Origin: Nocardiopsis mwathae
GTDB taxonomy: Bacteria; Actinomycetota; Actinomycetes; Streptosporangiales; Streptosporangiaceae
Assembly (NCBI RefSeq): GCF_014201195.1
Contig: NZ_JACHDS010000001.1
Span: 620,001-684,000 of the forward strand
DNA: 64,000 bases
Reading direction: 5' to 3'
Of the stretch, positions 21,203-60,382 are shown piece after piece. The notes beneath the pieces were generated by a model. The model made no database searches. It had not been told where the DNA came from and saw nothing but the letters and a program-made list of their open reading frames with translations. A program made the position numbers and the translations under genes. The stretch's first letter is position 1, and each line of letters opens with the position of its first letter.

Positions 21203-22789
21203 GTGCCCAAGCCCTCCGTTCTCGTCGCGGAAGAACTCTCACCCGCTGGAATCGCTCTGTTGGAGGGGGATTTCGAGGTCCGCCACACCAACGGCGCCGA
21301 CCGGTCCGAGCTCCTGCCCGCCCTCGCCGACGTCGACGCCCTGATCGTGCGCAGCGCGACCCGGGTGGACGCCGAGGCGCTGGCCGCCGCCCCCAAGCTC
21401 AAGGTGGTGGCGCGCGCCGGCGTCGGCCTGGACAACGTCGACGTCGACGCCGCCACGAAGGCCGGTGTGCTCGTCGTCAACGCGCCGACCTCCAACATCG
21501 TCAGCGCGGCCGAGCAGGCGGTGAACCTGCTGCTGGCCTGCTCCCGCAACACCGCCCCGGCGCACAGCGCCCTGGTCAAGGGCGAGTGGAAGCGATCCAA
21601 GTACACGGGTGTCGAGCTCTACGACAAGACCCTGGGCATCGTCGGCCTGGGCCGCATCGGGACGCTCGTCGCCCAGCGGCTCTCCGCCTTCGGAATGAAG
21701 CTGATCGCCTACGACCCCTTCGTGCAGCCGTCCCGTGCCGCTCAGATCGGCGTGGAGATGATGAGCCTGGACGAGGTGCTGGCGCAGAGCGACTTCCTCA
21801 CCATCCACCTGCCCAAGAACAAGGACACCCTCGGCCTGATCGGCGACGAGGCGCTGCACAAGGTCAAGCCGAGCGTGCGGATCATCAACGCGGCGCGCGG
21901 CGGGATCCTGGACGAGGGCGCGCTGTACCGCGCCCTGAAGGAGGGCAGGGTCGCCGGAGCCGGCATCGACGTGTTCGCCAAGGAGCCCTGCACCGACAGC
22001 CCGCTGTTCGAGTTCGAGAACGTGGTGGTCGCCCCGCACCTCGGCGCCAGCACCGCCGAGGCCCAGGAGAAGGCCGGAACCCAGGTTGCGCGCTCGGTGA
22101 AGCTCGCACTGTCCGGCGACTTCGTTCCGGACGCCGTCAACGTGCAGGGCGGCGCGGTGGCCGAGGAGCTCAAGCCGGGGCTGCCGCTGACCGAGAAGCT
22201 CGGCCGCATCTTCACCTCCATCGCCGGCGGAATCCCCGAGCGCATCGACGTCGAGGTACGCGGCGAGATCGCGGCGCACGACGTCAAGGTGATCGAGCTC
22301 GCCGCCCTCAAGGGCGTCTTCGGTGACGTCGTGGAGGACCCGGTCACCTTCGTCAACGCCCCGCTCTTGGCCAAGGAACGCGGCGTCGAGGTCAACCTGG
22401 TGACCAGCGACGACCACTCCGACTGGCGGAACCTGATCCGCGTGTGCGGGATCATGTCCGACGGGCAGCGCATCAATGTGGGCGGAACCCTGACCGGCCC
22501 CCGGCAGACCGAGAAGCTCGTCGAGATCGACGAGTACACCATGGAGATCCCGCTCAGCGCGCACATGGCGTTCTTCGCCTACGACGACCGCCCCGGCATC
22601 GTCGGCACGGTCGGCGCGCTGCTCGGCGACGCCCAGGTGAACATCGCGGGCATGCAGGTCAGCCGGGACGAGGAGGGCGGGAAGGCGCTCATCACGCTGA
22701 CCGTCGACTCGGCGATCCCCGACGCCACCCTCGACGCGATCTCCACCGAGATCCAGGCGGAGACCACCCGCCAGGTGGACCTGGACTAG
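21203..22789 (+). CDS. serA: D-3-phosphoglycerate dehydrogenase
   Basis: SerA oxidises 3-phosphoglycerate to 3-phosphohydroxypyruvate, the first step of serine synthesis. The 528-residue protein is the long actinobacterial form: a catalytic/NAD domain (GLGRIGTLVAQRL, NAARGGILDEGAL, HLGASTAEAQEKAG), an intervening allosteric substrate-binding domain, and a C-terminal ACT domain (DDRPGIVGTVGALLGDAQVNIAGM) for serine feedback. GTG 21203 follows AAAAGGATCAAGCT. The stop is 11 bases before the first copy of the 64-bp palindrome. Confidence 0.97.
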   Translation: MPKPSVLVAEELSPAGIALLEGDFEVRHTNGADRSELLPALADVDALIVRSATRVDAEALAAAPKLKVVARAGVGLDNVDVDAATKAGVLVVNAPTSNIVSAAEQAVNLLLACSRNTAPAHSALVKGEWKRSKYTGVELYDKTLGIVGLGRIGTLVAQRLSAFGMKLIAYDPFVQPSRAAQIGVEMMSLDEVLAQSDFLTIHLPKNKDTLGLIGDEALHKVKPSVRIINAARGGILDEGALYRALKEGRVAGAGIDVFAKEPCTDSPLFEFENVVVAPHLGASTAEAQEKAGTQVARSVKLALSGDFVPDAVNVQGGAVAEELKPGLPLTEKLGRIFTSIAGGIPERIDVEVRGEIAAHDVKVIELAALKGVFGDVVEDPVTFVNAPLLAKERGVEVNLVTSDDHSDWRNLIRVCGIMSDGQRINVGGTLTGPRQTEKLVEIDEYTMEIPLSAHMAFFAYDDRPGIVGTVGALLGDAQVNIAGMQVSRDEEGGKALITLTVDSAIPDATLDAISTEIQAETTRQVDLD

Positions 22790-22800
22790 CCCCCCGCTTT

Positions 22801-22864
22801 CGTTGATCTCGGGGATATCGGGGTGAAAATCGCCCCTGAGACCCCGATATCTCCGAGATCAACG
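22801..22864. repeat. 64-bp palindromic repeat, copy 1
   Basis: Outer 24-base arms (CGTTGATCTCGGGGATATCG... and complement) pair with one mismatch; the inner five bases of each arm have diverged. It lies between convergent serA and the 23066 gene, where it may serve as a terminator. See copies 23008, 35618 and 59564. Confidence 0.85.
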
Positions 22865-23007: not shown

Positions 23008-23071
23008 CGTTGATCTCGGGGGTATCGACCTAATTCTCGCCGGAATTAGGTCGATACCCCCGAGATCAACG
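23008..23071. repeat. 64-bp palindromic repeat, copy 2 (perfect)
   Basis: 29-base arms are perfectly complementary around the 6-base spacer TCGCCG. The right arm contains the stop codon of the minus-strand gene 23066-23845. The inner arm sequence differs from the other copies, but both arms changed together. Confidence 0.9.
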
Positions 23072-23845
23072 GGTTGCGGAGAAGAGTGCGGGGTCGTGGT
23101 CGGCGTCGAGGTCGAGGGCGGTGACCTCGTGGGTGGCCGACGGCGAGCCGTCGGCGCGCAGGTTGCGGAACGCCGTGAGGATGCCGCTGTCGGCGACGTC
23201 GAGCAGGCAGTGCCGGGCGTCCGGGGCGGCCAGGGCCGAGGCGACGATGTCCAGCGAGTGCGGGGCGGCGGTGAGCCGCAGGGCGGCATCGGCCCGCTCG
23301 GCCGTGTCCATCCGCAGCGCCAGGGCGGCCAGGGCCAGCGGCGGGTCGAGGACTTCGCGCAGCGCGCGGTTGGGGATCTGCCGCCAGTCGGTTCCGTCCA
23401 GTTCGGTCACCGCAGCACGGGGCGACGGCCGCCAGGTGCGGAGCTCACCGTCGATGAGCGACCACCGGCCGGTGCCGTCGCAGCCGTGGGTCAGCCACGG
23501 CACCCCGCCCCCGTCGATCTCCTCGTAGCGCCACCGGTCGGGTTTGCGCAGACGAAGACGGGCGGTGAGGATCGCGCGGCCGCCGCCGTCGGCGGGCGGG
23601 TGCGGCTCGCGCCGGGGCGGCGCCGTGCCGAGGATGCGGTCCAGGAGCGGGTGGAGCGGGCGGCGGACACGGGGCCCGCGCCCCGCGCCCTCGGCGGCGA
23701 GCGGCCGCTGCGCGGGTGGGCCGTCGAGTCCGGGCGGCAGTTCGCTGCGCAGGACCACGGTGAGGTTGCGATGGCGCTGGTCGGCCGCTGCCATGGCGAG
23801 CAGTGCGGCGGCGATGCCGTCCCGGCCGTCCCCCGGAGCGGTCAT
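23066..23845 (-). CDS. Hypothetical actinobacterial protein
   Basis: I do not recognise this 259-residue protein. It has no signal peptide or membrane helix. The middle (ARLRLRKPDRWRYEEIDG, then GRWSLIDGELRTWRPSP) loosely resembles the beta-strand pattern of LolA/RseB-like proteins that begins with a phrase about reading a value for a parameter, but this is weak. The second half is Ala/Leu/Asp-rich. It overlaps no other gene and lies 6 bases from the lipoprotein gene 23852-24538 on the same strand, so the two are probably co-transcribed. Its stop codon is inside palindrome copy 2. Confidence 0.6.
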   Translation of the reverse strand: MTAPGDGRDGIAAALLAMAAADQRHRNLTVVLRSELPPGLDGPPAQRPLAAEGAGRGPRVRRPLHPLLDRILGTAPPRREPHPPADGGGRAILTARLRLRKPDRWRYEEIDGGGVPWLTHGCDGTGRWSLIDGELRTWRPSPRAAVTELDGTDWRQIPNRALREVLDPPLALAALALRMDTAERADAALRLTAAPHSLDIVASALAAPDARHCLLDVADSGILTAFRNLRADGSPSATHEVTALDLDADHDPALFSATR

Positions 23846-32347: not shown

Positions 32348-35300
32348 ATGGATCGTCTCCCATCATCCCCCCTCGCCCACGCCGACCCCACACCCCTCCC
32401 ACCCCACGCCCGATCAGCGCACCCCGCCCTTCCGCCCTCCCTCCGCTACTCTCTCGACCGGCGCGAACTCCTCGCGGTGACCGGGCGCGCCGCGCTGGTC
32501 GGCGGCACGGTGTGGCTGCTCGGCCCCGACCTGGCCACCGCGCCCGCCGCCCGCGCCGCCCCGCGCGGAGACAGACCCGAGGCGACCGTCACCGAGGGCA
32601 CCAACATCTCGGCCACCGCCTCCCCCGACGGCGAATGGATCGCCTTCGACCTCTACAGCGCCATCTGGCTCGCCCCCGCGGGCGGCGGAACCGCGCGCCG
32701 CCTCACCGGCCCCCTCCAGGACGCCACCCGCCCGCACTTCGCCCCCGACTCCCGGCGCCTCGCCTTCCAGGCCTACGCCGAGGGCAACTTCCACATCCAC
32801 GTCCTCGACCTGGACGGCGGCGAGCCGCGGCGCCTCACCGACGGCCCGCACGACCACCGCGAACCCCGATTCTCCCCGGACGGGCGCACCATCGCCCTGG
32901 CCGCCGACCGCGGCGACGGCTACGGCATCTGGCTCTACGACCTCGAAGCCGAGAAGCTGACGGCGCTCACCGACAGCGACGTGGACGAGGCCGAGCCGAG
33001 CTGGTCGGCCGACGGCCGGAGCATCGTCTACGTCCAGGGCCGGGAGAGCATCCACGCGACCACCCTCGACGGGCGGAGCAGGGAGCTCGTCCCGGCCGCC
33101 CCCGCCACCACCGTCCACGCCCCCGCGCTGGCCGAGGACGGCGAGACGCTCGCCTACGTCCGCGCCCACGCCGACACGGTCCGCCTGGTCGTCGGCGGAG
33201 AACCGGTCAGCGGCACCGGCGAGGACGTGTTCCTCGGCGCCCTCACCTGGCTGGCCGCCGACCGCATCCTCTACACCGCCGACGGGCGCATCCGCACCCG
33301 CCACCCGGGCGGAGGGGCCGCCGACATCGACTTCCGCGCCACCGTTCCCTACCGCGACCACCGGCCCCGCCCACCGCGCCGCGACCCCGACGACACCGGC
33401 CGCCACCCCGTGCGCGGGATCGCCGGGCCGGTGCTGTCCCCCGACGGCACACAGGTGGCGTTCCGCGCCCTGGGGGCGCTGTGGGTGATGCCGGTCGGCG
33501 GTCGGCCGCGCGCCGTCGCCGACGACGGCGCCTTCAACTCCGACCCCGACTGGCACCCCGACGGGCGCTCGCTCGTCTACTCCAGCGACCGCGAGGGTGC
33601 CCCGGCGCTGTGGCGGCACCACCTCGACGACGGCACCGACGAGCGGCTGACCCGGCTGGAGGGGGCGCAGCTCACCCCCAGATGGGCGCCGGACGGGCGG
33701 CGGATCGCCTACCAGGACGAAGACGGCGCCACGTGGATCCTGGACCTGGACGACGGCTCCACCCGGCAGGTGCTGCCCGCGCTGTTCCAACCCGGGCGCC
33801 CCACGTGGTCGGCCGACGGCGCCACGCTCGCCCTCGCGGCGGTGCGGCCCCGCTCCACGCGCTTCCGGGAGGGGACCAGCCAGATCCTCACCGTCGACCT
33901 GGAGACGGGGCGCACCCGCTACACCGAACCGGCCCCCTACCGCTCGCTGTCCACCCGGGGCGACGACGGTCCGGTCTGGTCGCCCGACGGCACGCGTATG
34001 GCCTTCGTCATGGAGAGCGTGCTGTGGATCGCCGACGTCGACGGCGACGGAACGTTCACAGGGGAGGCGCGGCAGCTCACCGACGAAGTCACCGACGCAC
34101 CCAGCTGGAGCGGCGACTCCCGCACACTCCTCTACCTGAACAACGGGCGGCTGCGGCGGATCGCTGCCTCGGGCGGGCGGGCCCGGACCGTGCCGCTGCG
34201 GCTGTCCTGGAAGAGATCCAGACCCGGCGGCCGCACCGTCATCCGCGCGGGGGCCCTGTGGGACGGCACCTCACAGCGGCTGCGCCGCGACGTCGACATC
34301 GTCATCGACGGCAACCGCATCACCGAGGTCCGCGCCCGTGGGGCGGGCGGGGACGGCGGGCGCGACGGCGACGCCAGGATCGTCGACGCCACCGCGCACA
34401 CCGTCATGCCCGGCCTCGTCGACGCGCACGTCCACTGGCACCTGCGGGGGCGGGCGTGGGGTGCGCGGCAGGGGCCGCTGTTCCTGGCCTACGGCATCAC
34501 CACCGTCCGCTCCCCCGGCGACCCCGTCTACCAGATGCTGGAGACCCGGGAGGCGCTGGACGCCGGGAAGCAGGTCGGACCGCGCTACTTCGCGACCGGC
34601 GAGGCGGTCGACGGGAGCCGCGTCTACTACGACTTCATGCGGCCGACCCTGGACGCCGACCAGCTCGACCTGGAGATGGAGCGGGCCTTCGCGCTCGACT
34701 ACGACCTCATCAAGACCTACGTGCGGCTGCCGGTCGCGATGCAGCGGCACGCGGTCGAGAAGGCGCACGCCCAAGGCGTCCCGCTGACCTCCCACTACCT
34801 CTACCCCGCCGTCGAGCTGGGCATGGACGGGATGGAGCACACCGGGGCCACCAACCGCCTGGGCTACTCGCACACCGTCAGCACGCTCGGCCGCTCCTAC
34901 GCCGACGCCACCACGCTGTTCGCCGCCTCCGGGATGCCCATCACCCCGACCCTGTTCACCTCCGCGGCGATGTACGCCGAGGACCGCTCACTCGTCGAGG
35001 ACGAGCGAACGCGTGCCCTGTTCCCGCCGTGGGAGTACGAGGCGCTGGTACGCAAGGCGGACGCGGCCGGAGGCGACGGTGCGGCGGCCCGCCGCAGCCG
35101 AGCGGCGCTGCCGGGCCACGTGGCCATGCTGCTGAAGATCCACCGCGACGGCGGCACCGTGATCGGCGGGACCGACGCGCCCCTGGACAACGTCGCGGTG
35201 AGCCTGCACCAGAACATGCGGGCCATGGTGCGCTATGGATTCACCCCGTATGAGGCGCTGACGGTGTCGACCCGGACGGCCGCCGAATGGCTCGGCGTCG

Positions 35301-35596
35301 GCGACGACCTCGGCACGGTCGAGGCGGGAAAGCTCGCCGACCTCGCGATCGTCGACGGTGATCCGCTGGCCGACATCGCCGACGCGGCGGCGGTGCGGTG
35401 GACGGTGCGCAACGGCGAGGTGCACGCGGTCGACGACCTCGTCGCATCGGTTCCCGCCGCCTCCGCCACGGCCGACCGCCTCGTACCGGCGGCGGCCGCG
35501 CCCTCGACGCCGCGACGTGCCCCGCTCACCTCGGTCACGTCGCCGACCGAGTGGTGGCATGGCGAGTCCGAGCGGGGCTCCCCGCACCGCTGCTGA
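32348..35596 (+). CDS. Tat-exported amidohydrolase with TolB-like beta-propeller
   Basis: The 1082-residue protein has a twin-arginine signal (LDRRELLAVTGRAALVG), an N-terminal WD40/TolB-like propeller made of repeated SPDG/SADG motifs (residues about 75-620), and a C-terminal amidohydrolase barrel. Metal-site signatures are visible: DAHVHWH, TSHYLYPAVELGMDGMEH and GGTDAP. This layout occurs in secreted periplasmic-type amidohydrolases and imidazolonepropionase-like enzymes. The substrate is not inferable, although peptides, peptide-like or cyclic amides are possible. ATG 32348 leaves 37 residues before the twin Arg; a later start is possible. Confidence 0.85.
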   Translation: MDRLPSSPLAHADPTPLPPHARSAHPALPPSLRYSLDRRELLAVTGRAALVGGTVWLLGPDLATAPAARAAPRGDRPEATVTEGTNISATASPDGEWIAFDLYSAIWLAPAGGGTARRLTGPLQDATRPHFAPDSRRLAFQAYAEGNFHIHVLDLDGGEPRRLTDGPHDHREPRFSPDGRTIALAADRGDGYGIWLYDLEAEKLTALTDSDVDEAEPSWSADGRSIVYVQGRESIHATTLDGRSRELVPAAPATTVHAPALAEDGETLAYVRAHADTVRLVVGGEPVSGTGEDVFLGALTWLAADRILYTADGRIRTRHPGGGAADIDFRATVPYRDHRPRPPRRDPDDTGRHPVRGIAGPVLSPDGTQVAFRALGALWVMPVGGRPRAVADDGAFNSDPDWHPDGRSLVYSSDREGAPALWRHHLDDGTDERLTRLEGAQLTPRWAPDGRRIAYQDEDGATWILDLDDGSTRQVLPALFQPGRPTWSADGATLALAAVRPRSTRFREGTSQILTVDLETGRTRYTEPAPYRSLSTRGDDGPVWSPDGTRMAFVMESVLWIADVDGDGTFTGEARQLTDEVTDAPSWSGDSRTLLYLNNGRLRRIAASGGRARTVPLRLSWKRSRPGGRTVIRAGALWDGTSQRLRRDVDIVIDGNRITEVRARGAGGDGGRDGDARIVDATAHTVMPGLVDAHVHWHLRGRAWGARQGPLFLAYGITTVRSPGDPVYQMLETREALDAGKQVGPRYFATGEAVDGSRVYYDFMRPTLDADQLDLEMERAFALDYDLIKTYVRLPVAMQRHAVEKAHAQGVPLTSHYLYPAVELGMDGMEHTGATNRLGYSHTVSTLGRSYADATTLFAASGMPITPTLFTSAAMYAEDRSLVEDERTRALFPPWEYEALVRKADAAGGDGAAARRSRAALPGHVAMLLKIHRDGGTVIGGTDAPLDNVAVSLHQNMRAMVRYGFTPYEALTVSTRTAAEWLGVGDDLGTVEAGKLADLAIVDGDPLADIADAAAVRWTVRNGEVHAVDDLVASVPAASATADRLVPAAAAPSTPRRAPLTSVTSPTEWWHGESERGSPHRC

Positions 35597-35610: not shown

Positions 35611-35688
35611 CCCTTGCCGTTGACCTCGGGGATATCGACGTCATTTCCGCCGCTATTCGGTCGGTACACCCGAGATCAACGGCAAGGG
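35611..35688. repeat. 64-bp palindromic repeat, copy 3 (degenerate, extended arms)
   Basis: The 64-base core is 35618-35681. The arms are partly mismatched inside, but outer pairing extends by seven bases on each side (CCCTTGC/GCAAGGG). It lies between the amidohydrolase stop and the FAH gene on the same strand, 96 bases before the GTG start. Confidence 0.75.
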
Positions 35689-44193: not shown

Positions 44194-44265
44194 TGGGGTA
44201 TGGTGTAATCGGCAGCACGACTGATTCTGGTTCAGTTAGTCTAGGTTCGAGTCCTGGTACCCCAG
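44194..44265 (+). tRNA. tRNA-Gln (anticodon CTG)
   Basis: The 72-base cloverleaf has a perfect 7-bp acceptor stem (TGGGGTA/TACCCCA), a T-loop GGTTCGAGTCC, and an anticodon arm ACTGA-TTCTGGT-TCAGT with anticodon CTG. CCA is not encoded. Confidence 0.95.
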
Positions 44266-44319
44266 CGAGCGGCCTCCGGAGTTCCGGAGGCGCAGCGGGC
44301 CGGGTCTCCGGTCCGGTAG

Positions 44320-44392
44320 GCCCCCGTCGTCTAGTGGCCTAGGACGCCGCCCTCTCAAGGCGGTAACGGCGGTTCGAATCCGCTCGGGGGTA
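44320..44392 (+). tRNA. tRNA-Glu (anticodon CTC), copy 1
   Basis: The 73-base cloverleaf has acceptor GCCCCCG/CGGGGGT (G-U at the first pair), T-loop GGTTCGAATCC, and an anticodon arm with loop CTCTCAA. It is identical to the copy at 44519. CCA is not encoded. Confidence 0.95.
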
Positions 44393-44405
44393 CGCAACAG
44401 GGAGA

Positions 44406-44433
44406 AGCTCCCACCCATGTGGGGGCTTTTTTT
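44406..44433 (+). terminator. Terminator after tRNA-Glu copy 1
   Basis: AGCTCCCAC/GTGGGGGCT around CCAT, followed by a T-run to 44433. Confidence 0.85.
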
Positions 44434-44518
44434 CTGGGGTCGGTCGCTTCGGCGATCGGCCGAATCGGGACGATTCACCCTTCGGACTCCGATAGGGTAA
44501 GTCCCACGCGCTTCACAG

Positions 44519-44591
44519 GCCCCCGTCGTCTAGTGGCCTAGGACGCCGCCCTCTCAAGGCGGTAACGGCGGTTCGAATCCGCTCGGGGGTA
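44519..44591 (+). tRNA. tRNA-Glu (anticodon CTC), copy 2
   Basis: Exact duplicate of 44320-44392. It lies after a terminator and so needs its own promoter or read-through. Confidence 0.95.
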
Positions 44592-51225: not shown

Positions 51226-51273
51226 GATTGGATAGTACTACTCTCCAATATTGGAGAGTGAAACTATCCAATC
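51226..51273. promoter_or_regulatory. Nested palindromic operator between merR-type gene and DUF4188 gene
   Basis: GATTGGATAGT (51226-51236) pairs with ACTATCCAATC (51263-51273), and between them CTCTCCAAT/ATTGGAGAG (51241-51258) is a perfect 18-base palindrome. Everything is symmetric about 51249.5 except the two 4-base spacers. It is the likely MerR binding site. Confidence 0.75.
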
Positions 51274-58275: not shown

Positions 58276-58408
58276 GGCGTCATGTTAAACAAGGTGTCAA
58301 TAAGGATCCAGGGGTGGAGAGGGTTTATCACCCTGGGTCACCGTGGCCGGGGCGGCCGCGCTGGGGAGCCCGGGTGAGGATCATGTGCCCCCGGGGCACA
58401 ACAGGATC
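58276..58408. promoter_or_regulatory. Divergent promoter region of the M24 cluster and the sugar dehydrogenase
   Basis: A TTGACA box on the minus strand (58294-58299) lies before an AT-rich stretch 58278-58310 (TTAAACAAGG...). A candidate operator for the TetR protein could lie here but has no clear symmetry. Confidence 0.4.
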
Positions 58409-59539
58409 ATGCGCCGCGTCCCCGACAACGCCCGATCCCGCGCCGCGCAGGCGGCCGTCGCCCTCATGCTGGCCGCGGCGTGCGCGACCGAAGCGCCCGA
58501 ACGCCCCGACGATACGCCACGACCGGCAGAAACACCGGACAGGGGTGACCCGCCCGCTGTCCTGGAGGAGCCGGTGGACGTCGCCACCGACCTGGAGGTG
58601 CCGTGGGGCATCGACTTCCTGCCCGACGGATCGGCGCTGGTCACCGAGCGTGACTCCACTCGGGTCGTCCGGGTCGGGCCCGGCGGTGAGGTGACCGAGG
58701 TCGGCACGGTCGACGCGGCGGTGCCGCGCGGCGAGGGCGGGCTGCTCGGGCTGGCGGTCCACCCCGATTTCCCGGACGAGCCCGCCGTCTACGTGTACGC
58801 CACCGCCGCCGACGACAACCGGATCCTGCGCATGCCCTATGCCGAGGACACCGGGCTCGGCGATCCCGAGGTCGTCCTCGACGGCATCCCCAAGGCGGTC
58901 GTCCACAACGGCGGGCGCATCGCGTTCGGCCCCGACGGGCTACTGTACGCGGCCACCGGCGACGCCGCCGAGCCGCGGACGGCGCAGGACACCGACTCAC
59001 TGGCCGGCAAGATCCTTCGGATGACCCCCGAGGGGCGGGTTCCCGACGGCAACCCCTTCGACAACCTCGTCTACAGCTACGGCCACCGCAACGTGCAGGG
59101 CCTGGCCTGGGACGGCGAGGGGCGGATGTTCGCCACCGAGTTCGGCGCGGACGCCTACGACGAGGTCAACGTCATCGAACCCGGCGGCAACTACGGCTGG
59201 CCGGAGGTCGAGGGCATCGGCGGGGACGACCGCTTCATCGAACCGGTCGTGGTGTGGACGCCCGCCGAGGCGTCGCCGAGCGGGGCCGCGATCGCCGGGG
59301 ACGCGCTGTGGGTGGCCGCCCTGCGCGGCGAGCGGCTGTGGCGGGTCCCGCTGACCGGCGACGCCGAGGACCCCGTCGGCGAACCGGAGGCGCTCTACGT
59401 GGAGCGGTACGGTCGCCTGCGCTCGGTGGCGGCGCACCCTGACGGCGAGGAGCTGTGGGTCGGAACCAGCGACCGCGACGGCCGCGGCTCGCCCGCCCCC
59501 GGCGACGACCGCATCCTGCGGGTGCCCGCACCCGGCTGA
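58409..59539 (+). CDS. PQQ-dependent sugar dehydrogenase-like lipoprotein
   Basis: The 376-residue protein has a lipoprotein signal (ALMLAAACATEA) and a six-bladed propeller of the soluble glucose/sorbosone dehydrogenase family: VPWGIDFLPDGSALVTERD, GEGGLLGLAVHPDFP, HNGGRIAFGPDGLLYAATGD, SYGHRNVQGLAW, EFGADAYDEVNVIEPGGNYG. It oxidises aldoses or related sugars outside the membrane; whether PQQ is used in vivo is unknown. ATG 58409 and GTG 58385 are both possible starts. The stop lies 25 bases before palindrome copy 4. Confidence 0.87.
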   Translation: MRRVPDNARSRAAQAAVALMLAAACATEAPERPDDTPRPAETPDRGDPPAVLEEPVDVATDLEVPWGIDFLPDGSALVTERDSTRVVRVGPGGEVTEVGTVDAAVPRGEGGLLGLAVHPDFPDEPAVYVYATAADDNRILRMPYAEDTGLGDPEVVLDGIPKAVVHNGGRIAFGPDGLLYAATGDAAEPRTAQDTDSLAGKILRMTPEGRVPDGNPFDNLVYSYGHRNVQGLAWDGEGRMFATEFGADAYDEVNVIEPGGNYGWPEVEGIGGDDRFIEPVVVWTPAEASPSGAAIAGDALWVAALRGERLWRVPLTGDAEDPVGEPEALYVERYGRLRSVAAHPDGEELWVGTSDRDGRGSPAPGDDRILRVPAPG

Positions 59540-59563
59540 CCACGCGCCCCCACCTCCATTCCT

Positions 59564-59627
59564 CGTTGATCTCGGAGATATCGGGGTGATACCGGCGAGT
59601 ATCACCCCGATATCTCCGAGATCAACG
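59564..59627. repeat. 64-bp palindromic repeat, copy 4 (perfect)
   Basis: 29-base arms are perfectly complementary around CGGCGA. It lies between convergent genes (sugar dehydrogenase and IclR-type regulator). Same length and outer sequence as copies 1-3. Confidence 0.9.
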
Positions 59628-59644
59628 GATGGGGGGCGTGGGGG

Positions 59645-60382
59645 CTACTGGGTGTGCGTCTCGTTGGTGTGCAGGGCCTCGTTGATCTTCTCCGCGGCCG
59701 AGGTCACGGCCTGGGCGTGCAGGCGGCCGGGGGAGCGGCCCAGGCGCTCGATCGGTCCGGATATCGAGACGGCCGCGATCACCCGGCCGCCGGGGCCGGT
59801 GATCGGGGCGGACACCGAGGCGACGCCCTGCTCGCGCTCGGCGACGCTCTGGGCCCAGCGGCGCCGCCGGACCTGGGACAGCGTGGCCGAGGTGAACCGC
59901 GCGCCGCGCAGGTGGCGGCGGATGCGCTCGCCGTCCTCCCAGGCCAGCAGGATCTGCGCGGCCGAGCCCGCGTTCATCGGGAGTTCGCTGCCGACCGGGA
60001 CGGTGTCGCGCAGCCCGCTGGTGCGCTCCGACGCGGCCACGCACACCCGCACGTCGCCCTGGCGGCGGTAGAGCTGGGCGCTCTCACCGGTCAGGTCGCG
60101 CAGCCGCGTCAGCACCGGGGTGGCCACGGCCAGCAGCCGGTCCTCGCCGGTGGAGATGGACAGCTCGCCCAGGCGCGGGCCGAGGATGAACCGCCCCTGG
60201 CTGTCGCGGGTGACCATGCGGTGGCGCTCCAGCGCGACCGCCAGGCGGTGCGCGGTGGGCCGGGCCAGCCCGGTGATCTGCACGAGCTGGGCGAGCGAAG
60301 CCGGGCCGGACTCCAGCGCGTCGAGTACGGACATCGTCTTGTCCAGGACACCGACACCACTGGATGAGCTAGAGTTGTCCAT
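59645..60382 (-). CDS. ndgR: IclR-family regulator divergent from leuCD (NdgR/LtbR type)
   Basis: The 245-residue protein has an IclR winged-helix N-terminus (LDKTMSVLDALESGPASLAQ, LARPTAHRLAVALERH) and a GAF-like effector domain (AQLYRRQGDVRVCVAASER, LPMNAGSAAQILLAWEDGE). IclR proteins divergent from leuCD, NdgR in Streptomyces and LtbR in Corynebacterium, control leuCD and other amino-acid genes. The start ATG 60382 lacks a clear ribosome site, so the transcript may be leaderless. It may bind the weak site at 60397 and the palindromes before ilvB, leuB and cimA. Confidence 0.85.
   Translation of the reverse strand: MDNSSSSSGVGVLDKTMSVLDALESGPASLAQLVQITGLARPTAHRLAVALERHRMVTRDSQGRFILGPRLGELSISTGEDRLLAVATPVLTRLRDLTGESAQLYRRQGDVRVCVAASERTSGLRDTVPVGSELPMNAGSAAQILLAWEDGERIRRHLRGARFTSATLSQVRRRRWAQSVAEREQGVASVSAPITGPGGRVIAAVSISGPIERLGRSPGRLHAQAVTSAAEKINEALHTNETHTQ

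Follow-up and report, generated by a model that had tools for sequence, protein, structure and literature searches.

Palindromes of the window and their neighbouring genes

The stretch of DNA analysed in this work (64,000 nucleotides, G000:C1:620001-684000, hereafter the window) is part of a 5.94 Mb genome (G000) and contains four palindromes that each span 64 bases. An earlier note had claimed four such spans, and all of them were found where it had placed them. The palindromes and the genes adjoining them are as follows:

21203..22789, + strand: 3-phosphoglycerate dehydrogenase-type (serA-type) gene, upstream of copy 1
22801..22864, unstranded: copy 1, subfamily S1, core of the AGATATCGGGG type; 24-bp stem and 16-nt loop
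23008..23071, unstranded: copy 2, subfamily S2, GATATCGACC type; perfect 29-6-29 stem
23066..23845, - strand: ORF without a Pfam match, whose end falls inside copy 2
32348..35596, + strand: PD40/amidohydrolase gene, upstream of copy 3
35618..35681, unstranded: copy 3, S2-like, decayed; tandem genes on either side, 21 bp past a stop codon
35785..36585, + strand: FAA-hydrolase-type gene, downstream of copy 3
58385..59539, + strand: glucose/sorbosone dehydrogenase-type (GSDH) gene, upstream of copy 4
59546..59645, unstranded: copy 4 with extended outer arms; imperfect 47-nt arms, 83% complementary
59564..59627, unstranded: copy 4, S1 stem, perfect 29-6-29; convergent genes on either side
59645..60382, - strand: IclR-type regulator, convergent to the GSDH gene at copy 4

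The gene context described in the earlier note is borne out, with copies 1, 2, and 4 located between convergent genes and copy 3 between co-directional genes. The stop codon of the serA-type gene lies 11 bp ahead of copy 1, the right arm of copy 2 provides the TGA that terminates the minus-strand ORF 23066-23845, and the extended form of copy 4 occupies nearly all of the gap between two stop codons. The layout of 29-base arms and a 6-base spacer, which had been ascribed to all four palindromes, holds for copies 2 and 4 (the arms of copy 2 could pair up to 30) but not for copy 1, with its shorter stem and longer loop, or for copy 3, which contains several mismatches. The flanks of copy 3 lengthen its palindrome by 7 bp (CCCTTGC / GCAAGGG). 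The folding energy of copy 3 is -28.8 kcal/mol, in comparison to -44.6 to -56.2 kcal/mol for the other three, and each copy folds better than its own dinucleotide shuffles (z -4.0 to -13.4; 0 of 200 shuffles equal).

The window also contains an AT-rich inverted repeat of 48 bp (51226-51273; 24-nt arms, 88% complementary) that is unlike the 64-bp family, and a row of three tRNA genes (44194-44591), two of which score equal. A search of the window with Rfam covariance models at the gathering score matched only 3 tRNAs, and membership of a known RNA family was rejected on this basis.

Architecture, copy number and distribution of the family

The pattern CGTTGATCTCGG-N30..50-CCGAGATCAACG (exact-arm pattern) is found 84 times in the whole of G000, while a reversed-pattern control is found 0 times. 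The palindromes are thus not due to chance, in agreement with the earlier note, and the concern that the genome might hold few or no other copies does not apply. In a set of 60 genomes that included G000, exact-arm copies were identified in G000 (84), in the same-genus relative G001 (131), and in G009 (38), and the pattern was absent from the remaining 57. When shorter arms were used, 9 of 200 genomes of the family were positive, again including G000, with high counts for G181 (196), G001 (141), G000 (88), G146 (60), and G009 (51), and low counts for G124 (4), G079 (2), G165 (2), and G096 (1). The shorter-arm pattern is also present in all 6 of 6 genomes from the genus of G181, which is a Nocardiopsis, and the carriers among the matches listed include Nocardiopsis endophytica, suaedae, halophila, and chromatogenes. 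High copy number is seen in one clade. A viral or plasmid origin was rejected, as 0 stretches of the viral contigs match the palindrome and the plasmids contain no match for copy 2.

Each unit consists of a 12-bp constant arm, an 11-bp variable complementary arm, a centre of ~18 nt, and both arms again, which gives 64 bp. The outer arms are near-constant, and the next 11 bp vary between subfamilies while mostly remaining complementary. The length is 64 in 159 of 168 listed matches (a list that includes two overlapping 55-base duplicates) and in 172 of 176 copies from G000 and G001, the others being 63, 66, 73, and 74 bp. The counting rule (at most 2 arm mismatches on the left and at most 4 in all; at least 17 of 26 positions paired) took 180 palindromes, of which 4, all from G001 and 62-63 bp long, are members of a sister family and 4 are of other lengths; these 8 were left out of the arm tests and the gene-context counts for 64-bp copies, leaving 172 (83 from G000, 89 from G001). 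Five core subfamilies, assigned by distance to core patterns that we set, cover these 172 copies (viz. S1, 99; S2, 51; S3, 9; S4, 9; and S5, 4). Of the 172 copies, 145 have two exact 12-bp arms, 79 a perfect 23-bp stem, and 14 a perfect 29-bp stem. An S1 arm joined to an S2 arm occurs in 0 of these 172 sampled copies, and the sole mixed pair of named arms is S3/S4, which are one base apart in the arm.

Palindromes of the sister family measure 61-63 bp; their cores vary, and their 12-bp ends are, for example, CGATGATCATGG or CGATGATCACGG. The G001 stretches contain 11 of these, of which one has a variant end, and a further 4 (for example G001:C1:2026377, 1905536, 5029791 and others), and none are listed in the G000 stretches. 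Palindromes of the two families also meet in a composite repeat of ~600-700 bp with long outer inverted repeats (G001:C1:1905250-1906000, 3037573-3038191, 2026079-2026688 and others), where at 6 places one palindrome of each family is present, 131-199 bp apart; several ORFs of at least 80 aa overlap one copy of this repeat, and G000:C2:18682-18749, on a small second contig, matches its palindrome part. The composite repeat was rejected as the explanation of the family, since it leaves the solo copies unexplained. Seven loci of Nocardiopsis endophytica (L036, L042, L061, L068, L092, L107, and L127) contain pairs of 64-bp palindromes 90-93 bp apart, and also copies that have their flanks in common with other copies, as if they were parts of larger repeats.

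Positions relative to genes and mobility

Genes were called with a home-made program based on codon usage, which gave a coding fraction of 0.80 for 800 kb of G001. The stretches taken from G000 were picked for the copies they contain, as were roughly half of those from G001, and one 800-kb stretch of G001 is unbiased. Among the 89 64-bp copies of G001, 44 lie between convergent genes, 37 between tandem genes, 3 between divergent genes, and 5 inside genes, in comparison to 195 convergent, 665 tandem, and 200 divergent gaps overall; the convergent enrichment (Fisher p 1.5e-13) and the divergent depletion (p 3e-5) were calculated with a gap that holds two copies counted twice. The 83 copies of G000 are divided into 43 convergent, 33 tandem, 1 divergent, 2 inside genes, and 4 at block edges. 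Nocardiopsis loci contributed 154 copies, of which 68 lie between convergent genes, 65 between tandem genes, 9 between divergent genes, and 12 at edges. The unbiased 800-kb stretch contains 32 palindromes, 2 of them of the sister family, with 11 convergent, 16 tandem, 1 divergent, and 4 inside genes. The copies lie close behind stop codons: the median distance is 36 bp in G000 and 26 bp in G001, with 63 of 119 and 89 of 125, respectively, at most 40 bp away. In 6 of 119 cases in G000 and 7 of 125 in G001, copy 2 being one example, the TGA stop is supplied by the arm itself.

A comparison of orthologous places in G000 and G001 reveals both presence and absence of the palindromes. Both flanks of 29 G000 copies could be placed in the G001 stretches compared, and a copy occupies the same spot for 10 of them (8 of the 27 intergenic copies and both of the 2 inside genes), while at 19 of the 27 intergenic sites the copy is absent, by the arm rule, from the matching G001 place. 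Window copies 3 and 4 are among these 19; copies 1 and 2 failed the two-sided flank rule, and a search of 800 bases around the corresponding place in G001 found no copy. The G001 slot matching copy 4 holds a palindrome of the sister family. In the reverse direction, 12 of 18 G001 copies are matched in G000, with repeated modules of polyketide synthase (PKS) genes counted. An exact empty-site search was rejected, as the intergenic DNA of the two genomes is too diverged; in this diverged DNA no target-site duplication was seen, and the adjacent flanks lean to inverted repeats.

The family has also entered coding sequences. Two G000 copies are located in frame in acyltransferase domains of PKS genes (one Pfam-confirmed, PF00698), and the conserved-motif span is 40 aa in the interrupted domains (45 in one G001 module) versus 19 aa in two uninterrupted G001 domains. 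The copies in modular PKS genes, which are kept in several modules and, in the cases checked, interrupt the acyltransferase domain in frame, are the following:

G000:C1:429602, 435249
G001:C1:5310320, 5315934, 5326985, 5332457

Elsewhere in G001, near-identical copies in the same orientation (G001:C1:5294458 and 5295649; L186:14458-15712) surround a gene with a weak AbiEi-type match. The suggestion of a REP-like mobile unit, which had been offered as one of two readings of the window, is supported by the dispersed copies, their 3'-end location, the presence and absence at orthologous sites, and the in-frame PKS insertions.

Chance co-occupancy is expected at ~2.05 sites, and hence not every shared pair need be a single old insertion. 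The 8 shared intergenic sites include 5 with different subfamilies, 1 symmetric variant (3156806/2361962, in which 3 pairs have changed on both sides and 1 pair on a single side), and 2 with the same subfamily; the last two differ at 6 and 9 one-sided pairs versus 1 and 1 two-sided pairs, which indicates that arm correction is not constant. At one shared site (G000:4310351 / G001:1154630) the junction is identical, the left flank is identical at 19 of 20 positions, and the right flank at 11 of 20 ungapped and better when gapped; the sole change in the left flank (position 4) is mirrored in the right flank. One species has an S1 core at this site and the other an S2 core, so that different cores occupy one clearly conserved position. 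In the other intergenic shared pairs that were compared, the flanks are alike at 5-15 of 20 positions, and only this pair is clearly conserved to the junction. It is possible, although we do not favour it, that the units inserted independently at preferred targets (palindromic, like CCTC/GAGG, and behind genes) without any exchange of cores. The flank consensus GAGGARGGGG (pooled over both ends of 161 copies), the roughly two co-occupied sites that chance would provide, and the diverged flanks of most shared pairs are in accordance with such insertions, whereas the excess of shared sites (8 versus 2.05; P(>=8) 0.0013) and the junction of 4310351/1154630, identical to the base beside a conserved flank, argue against them.

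In a number of respects the family resembles previously described repeats. GTAG and CGTC REPs are 20-40 bp long and carry, on one of their ends, the unpaired tag (GTAG or CGTC) after which they are named. They are located between convergent and co-directional genes, and those between convergent genes mostly lie less than 20 bp away from the 3' ends; the ends of GTAG REPs often provide the stop codons of ORFs, some REPs are found inside ORFs, and the CGTC type seems to be without a dedicated transposase (PMC3733652). The family described here shares their high copy number, placement at gene 3' ends, provision of stop codons, and occasional location in ORFs; it differs in its 64-bp length, its symmetric ends, and its arms, which are constant on the outside and variable yet complementary on the inside. 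The unpaired GTAG tag does not appear in the flank logo for both ends of 161 copies, nor does CGTC, and the ends consist of CGTT paired with AACG. Thus, by their defining tags, these palindromes, whose carriers are Nocardiopsis and relatives, are neither GTAG nor CGTC REPs, and although they are high-copy palindromes near gene 3' ends, as REPs in general are, they exceed the 20-40 bp length. The main text of the above article contains no mention of actinobacter, Streptomyces, Nocardiopsis, or Frankia (PMC3733652). REPINs with RAYTs form populations of miniature mobile palindromic DNA within genomes (PMC3116915), to which the present family is similar as a population of palindromes and from which it differs in that neither a repeat-flanked cognate Y1 gene nor a RAYT was found. 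Rickettsia palindromic elements (~150 bp), described from genes, likewise make in-frame insertions (PMC10969869, PMC3733652); the units studied here are of 64 bp and mostly intergenic. The literature searched, which mostly left out subscription journals and preprints, yielded no description of the 64-bp family. The REP-like kind is already known; what is new is the layout of 64 bp, a core that varies and yet stays symmetric, and the probable replacement of one core by another where the position is conserved.

Arm symmetry, core exchange and their possible causes

In 19 aligned G000 copies both-sided changes occur at 13 of 29 pairs, and the covariation is 0.209 versus 0.121 in shuffled data (0 of 500), which makes symmetric change both real and general. 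The compensatory change noticed among the window copies is thus confirmed, and the two arms of one copy agree beyond permuted arms. When arms were shuffled within subfamily and genome (1000 permutations), own-arm mismatches were fewer than permuted ones in S1 (0.88 vs. 1.13), S2 (0.69 vs. 1.40), and S3 (0.56 vs. 2.0), each with 0 of 1000; the 9 copies of S4 gave a non-significant result (p 0.325), and the 4 of S5 were outside the test. Matched two-sided changes exceed the product expectation in S1 (50 vs. 28.6) and S2 (35 vs. 5.1), alongside 103 and 40 one-sided changes, respectively, and the changes that occur once are 11 two-sided and 17 one-sided. Two-sided changes can also be due to descent from symmetric parents.

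The symmetry continues into the DNA next to the units. In the flank tests, which used 161 of 172 copies and left out those at block edges or inside genes, palindromes extend into their own flanks by 3.48 vs. 2.50 in G000 (p 0.001) and 3.01 vs. 2.09 in G001 (0 of 1000), and earlier arm-extension tests gave p 0.023 for 20 G000 copies and 0 of 300 for 61 copies. For 138 copies from the Nocardiopsis loci, no outward extension was observed (1.34 vs. 2.15 with crossed flanks; permutation p 1.0), and flank symmetrisation is accordingly shown for only two genomes, G000 and G001; many of the 138 copies have flanks in common, as if within larger repeats. The flanks of 61 copies are biased in composition (left, C 517 and G 179; right, G 502 and C 190), and no such C-left/G-right bias is present in 68 convergent gap centres. 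Gene tails without a copy contain hairpins in 207 of 593 cases, in comparison to 94 of 593 when shuffled and 70 of 521 upstream regions. As these hairpins lack the C-left/G-right bias, terminator arms alone do not account for the biased flanks, and insertion into pre-existing terminators was rejected.

Template switching between the arms of inverted repeats makes the arms alike (PMC8604942), and quasipalindromes that are hotspots of such switching provide a mechanism for equalising arms (PMC8604942, PMC7202029). These hotspots represent a mutational process and not a repeat family; here the process would act on a dispersed family. Template switching could yield the agreement of arms, the two-sided changes, and the flank extension, although it gives no prediction of C-rich left and G-rich right flanks.

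The other reading of the window copies was that of functional RNA hairpins, acting as two-way intrinsic terminators or as stabilisers of mRNA 3' ends, in which selection for pairing would fix compensatory changes. Their location close behind stops, their enrichment between convergent genes and rarity between divergent ones, and the very stable RNA folds that they form with their flanks (median -61.6 kcal/mol) are consistent with such a role, as is the presence, judged by eye, of other, unrelated inverted repeats in two copy-free orthologous slots (279129 and 605310). If pairing in the transcript were under selection, G-U pairs should exceed A-C mismatches on the transcribed strand. The tandem copies contain 47 GU, 60 AC, and 129 other mismatches on that strand, and the GU:AC ratios of the two-genome set are 20:22 in stems and 79:84 in flanks; a ratio of 114:75 in the flanks of convergent copies, whose orientation is arbitrary, is unexplained and was taken as noise. 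Selection on the RNA strand was rejected, as GU shows no excess over AC. The U-tract of intrinsic terminators is also lacking behind the hairpins, with a T fraction of 0.08 in 244 downstream stretches and T runs of at least 3 in 2 of 244. In the absence of both a G-U preference and a U-tract, RNA pairing fails to account for the symmetry, and the claim that a functional RNA hairpin is its cause is not upheld. Furthermore, a copy is missing in the relative at 19 of 27 sites, and termination needs neither a constant arm sequence nor a constant length. We therefore consider this explanation doubtful. The copies may act as terminators, yet such a role would offer no account of the symmetry, and RNA function may be a by-product. 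DNA-level processes (viz. template switching between arms and replacement of whole cores) fit the symmetry better than RNA pairing does.

The combination of S1 and S2 cores at 4310351/1154630 and the lack of S1/S2 arm mixtures in the 172 copies leads us to infer that cores are exchanged whole. The 12-bp arms might even serve as recognition sites, either for an enzyme or for a hairpin intermediate of single-stranded DNA, by which the 40-bp core would be passed as a sealed cassette from one resident copy to another. We regard this mechanism as unlikely; if true, dispersed palindromes would evolve in concert within each genome while their positions stay fixed.

A search for a mobilising enzyme identified a single Y1_Tnp match in G000 (gene 2600061-2600420, adjoining a TnpB-type ORF), and no 64-bp copy is present in this locus (3360 bp) or in any of 13 Y1 loci (2.3-3.4 kb each). 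The Y1 genes of 14 relatives show no link with copy number, and in G009, despite 38 exact-arm copies, Y1 is represented only by a 30-position match. The RAYT or IS200 link that had been suggested was thus looked for and not found, and a partner of this kind was rejected. No exact unpaired arm is present in the stretches scanned (464 kb from G000, 800 kb from G001), so that no longer element with these exact ends is seen in them; an IS with the palindrome arms as its ends was rejected for them, and the idea that the copies might be explained by a known IS end found no support there. A MITE moved by a DDE-type IS, with the 12-bp arms as terminal repeats, would agree with the constant terminal arms, dispersed copies, and near-fixed length, but it appears very unlikely in view of the lack of exact unpaired arms in the stretches scanned, the lean of the flanks to inverted and not direct repeats, and the complementary inner parts, which a MITE would not need.

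Taken as a whole, our results are on balance probably best explained by a new REP-like family of non-coding palindromes that spreads in trans, maintains its symmetry at the DNA level, and replaces its cores as whole units, although neither an enzyme nor a target-site duplication was found. In this REP-like family, an enzyme would spread the units in trans, and they would settle behind genes either because they are tolerated there or because they are useful as a two-way 3' end. Symmetry would be kept chiefly by arm-to-arm template switching at replication, by which a mutation in either arm would be transferred to its partner and the immediate flanks, too, would become symmetric. Cores would be replaced from other copies via the constant arms, and each genome would thereby tend to acquire core types of its own.

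Gene clusters of actinomycetes can be harder to assemble, clone, and express where long hairpins follow the genes. The location of some copies inside PKS genes makes a practical relevance of the family possible. The 84 and 131 exact-arm copies of two sister genomes constitute a natural data set for template switching between arms and for core exchange. The family would extend REP-like repeats to the actinomycetes, and in its units a constant end is set apart from a variable, self-complementary middle.
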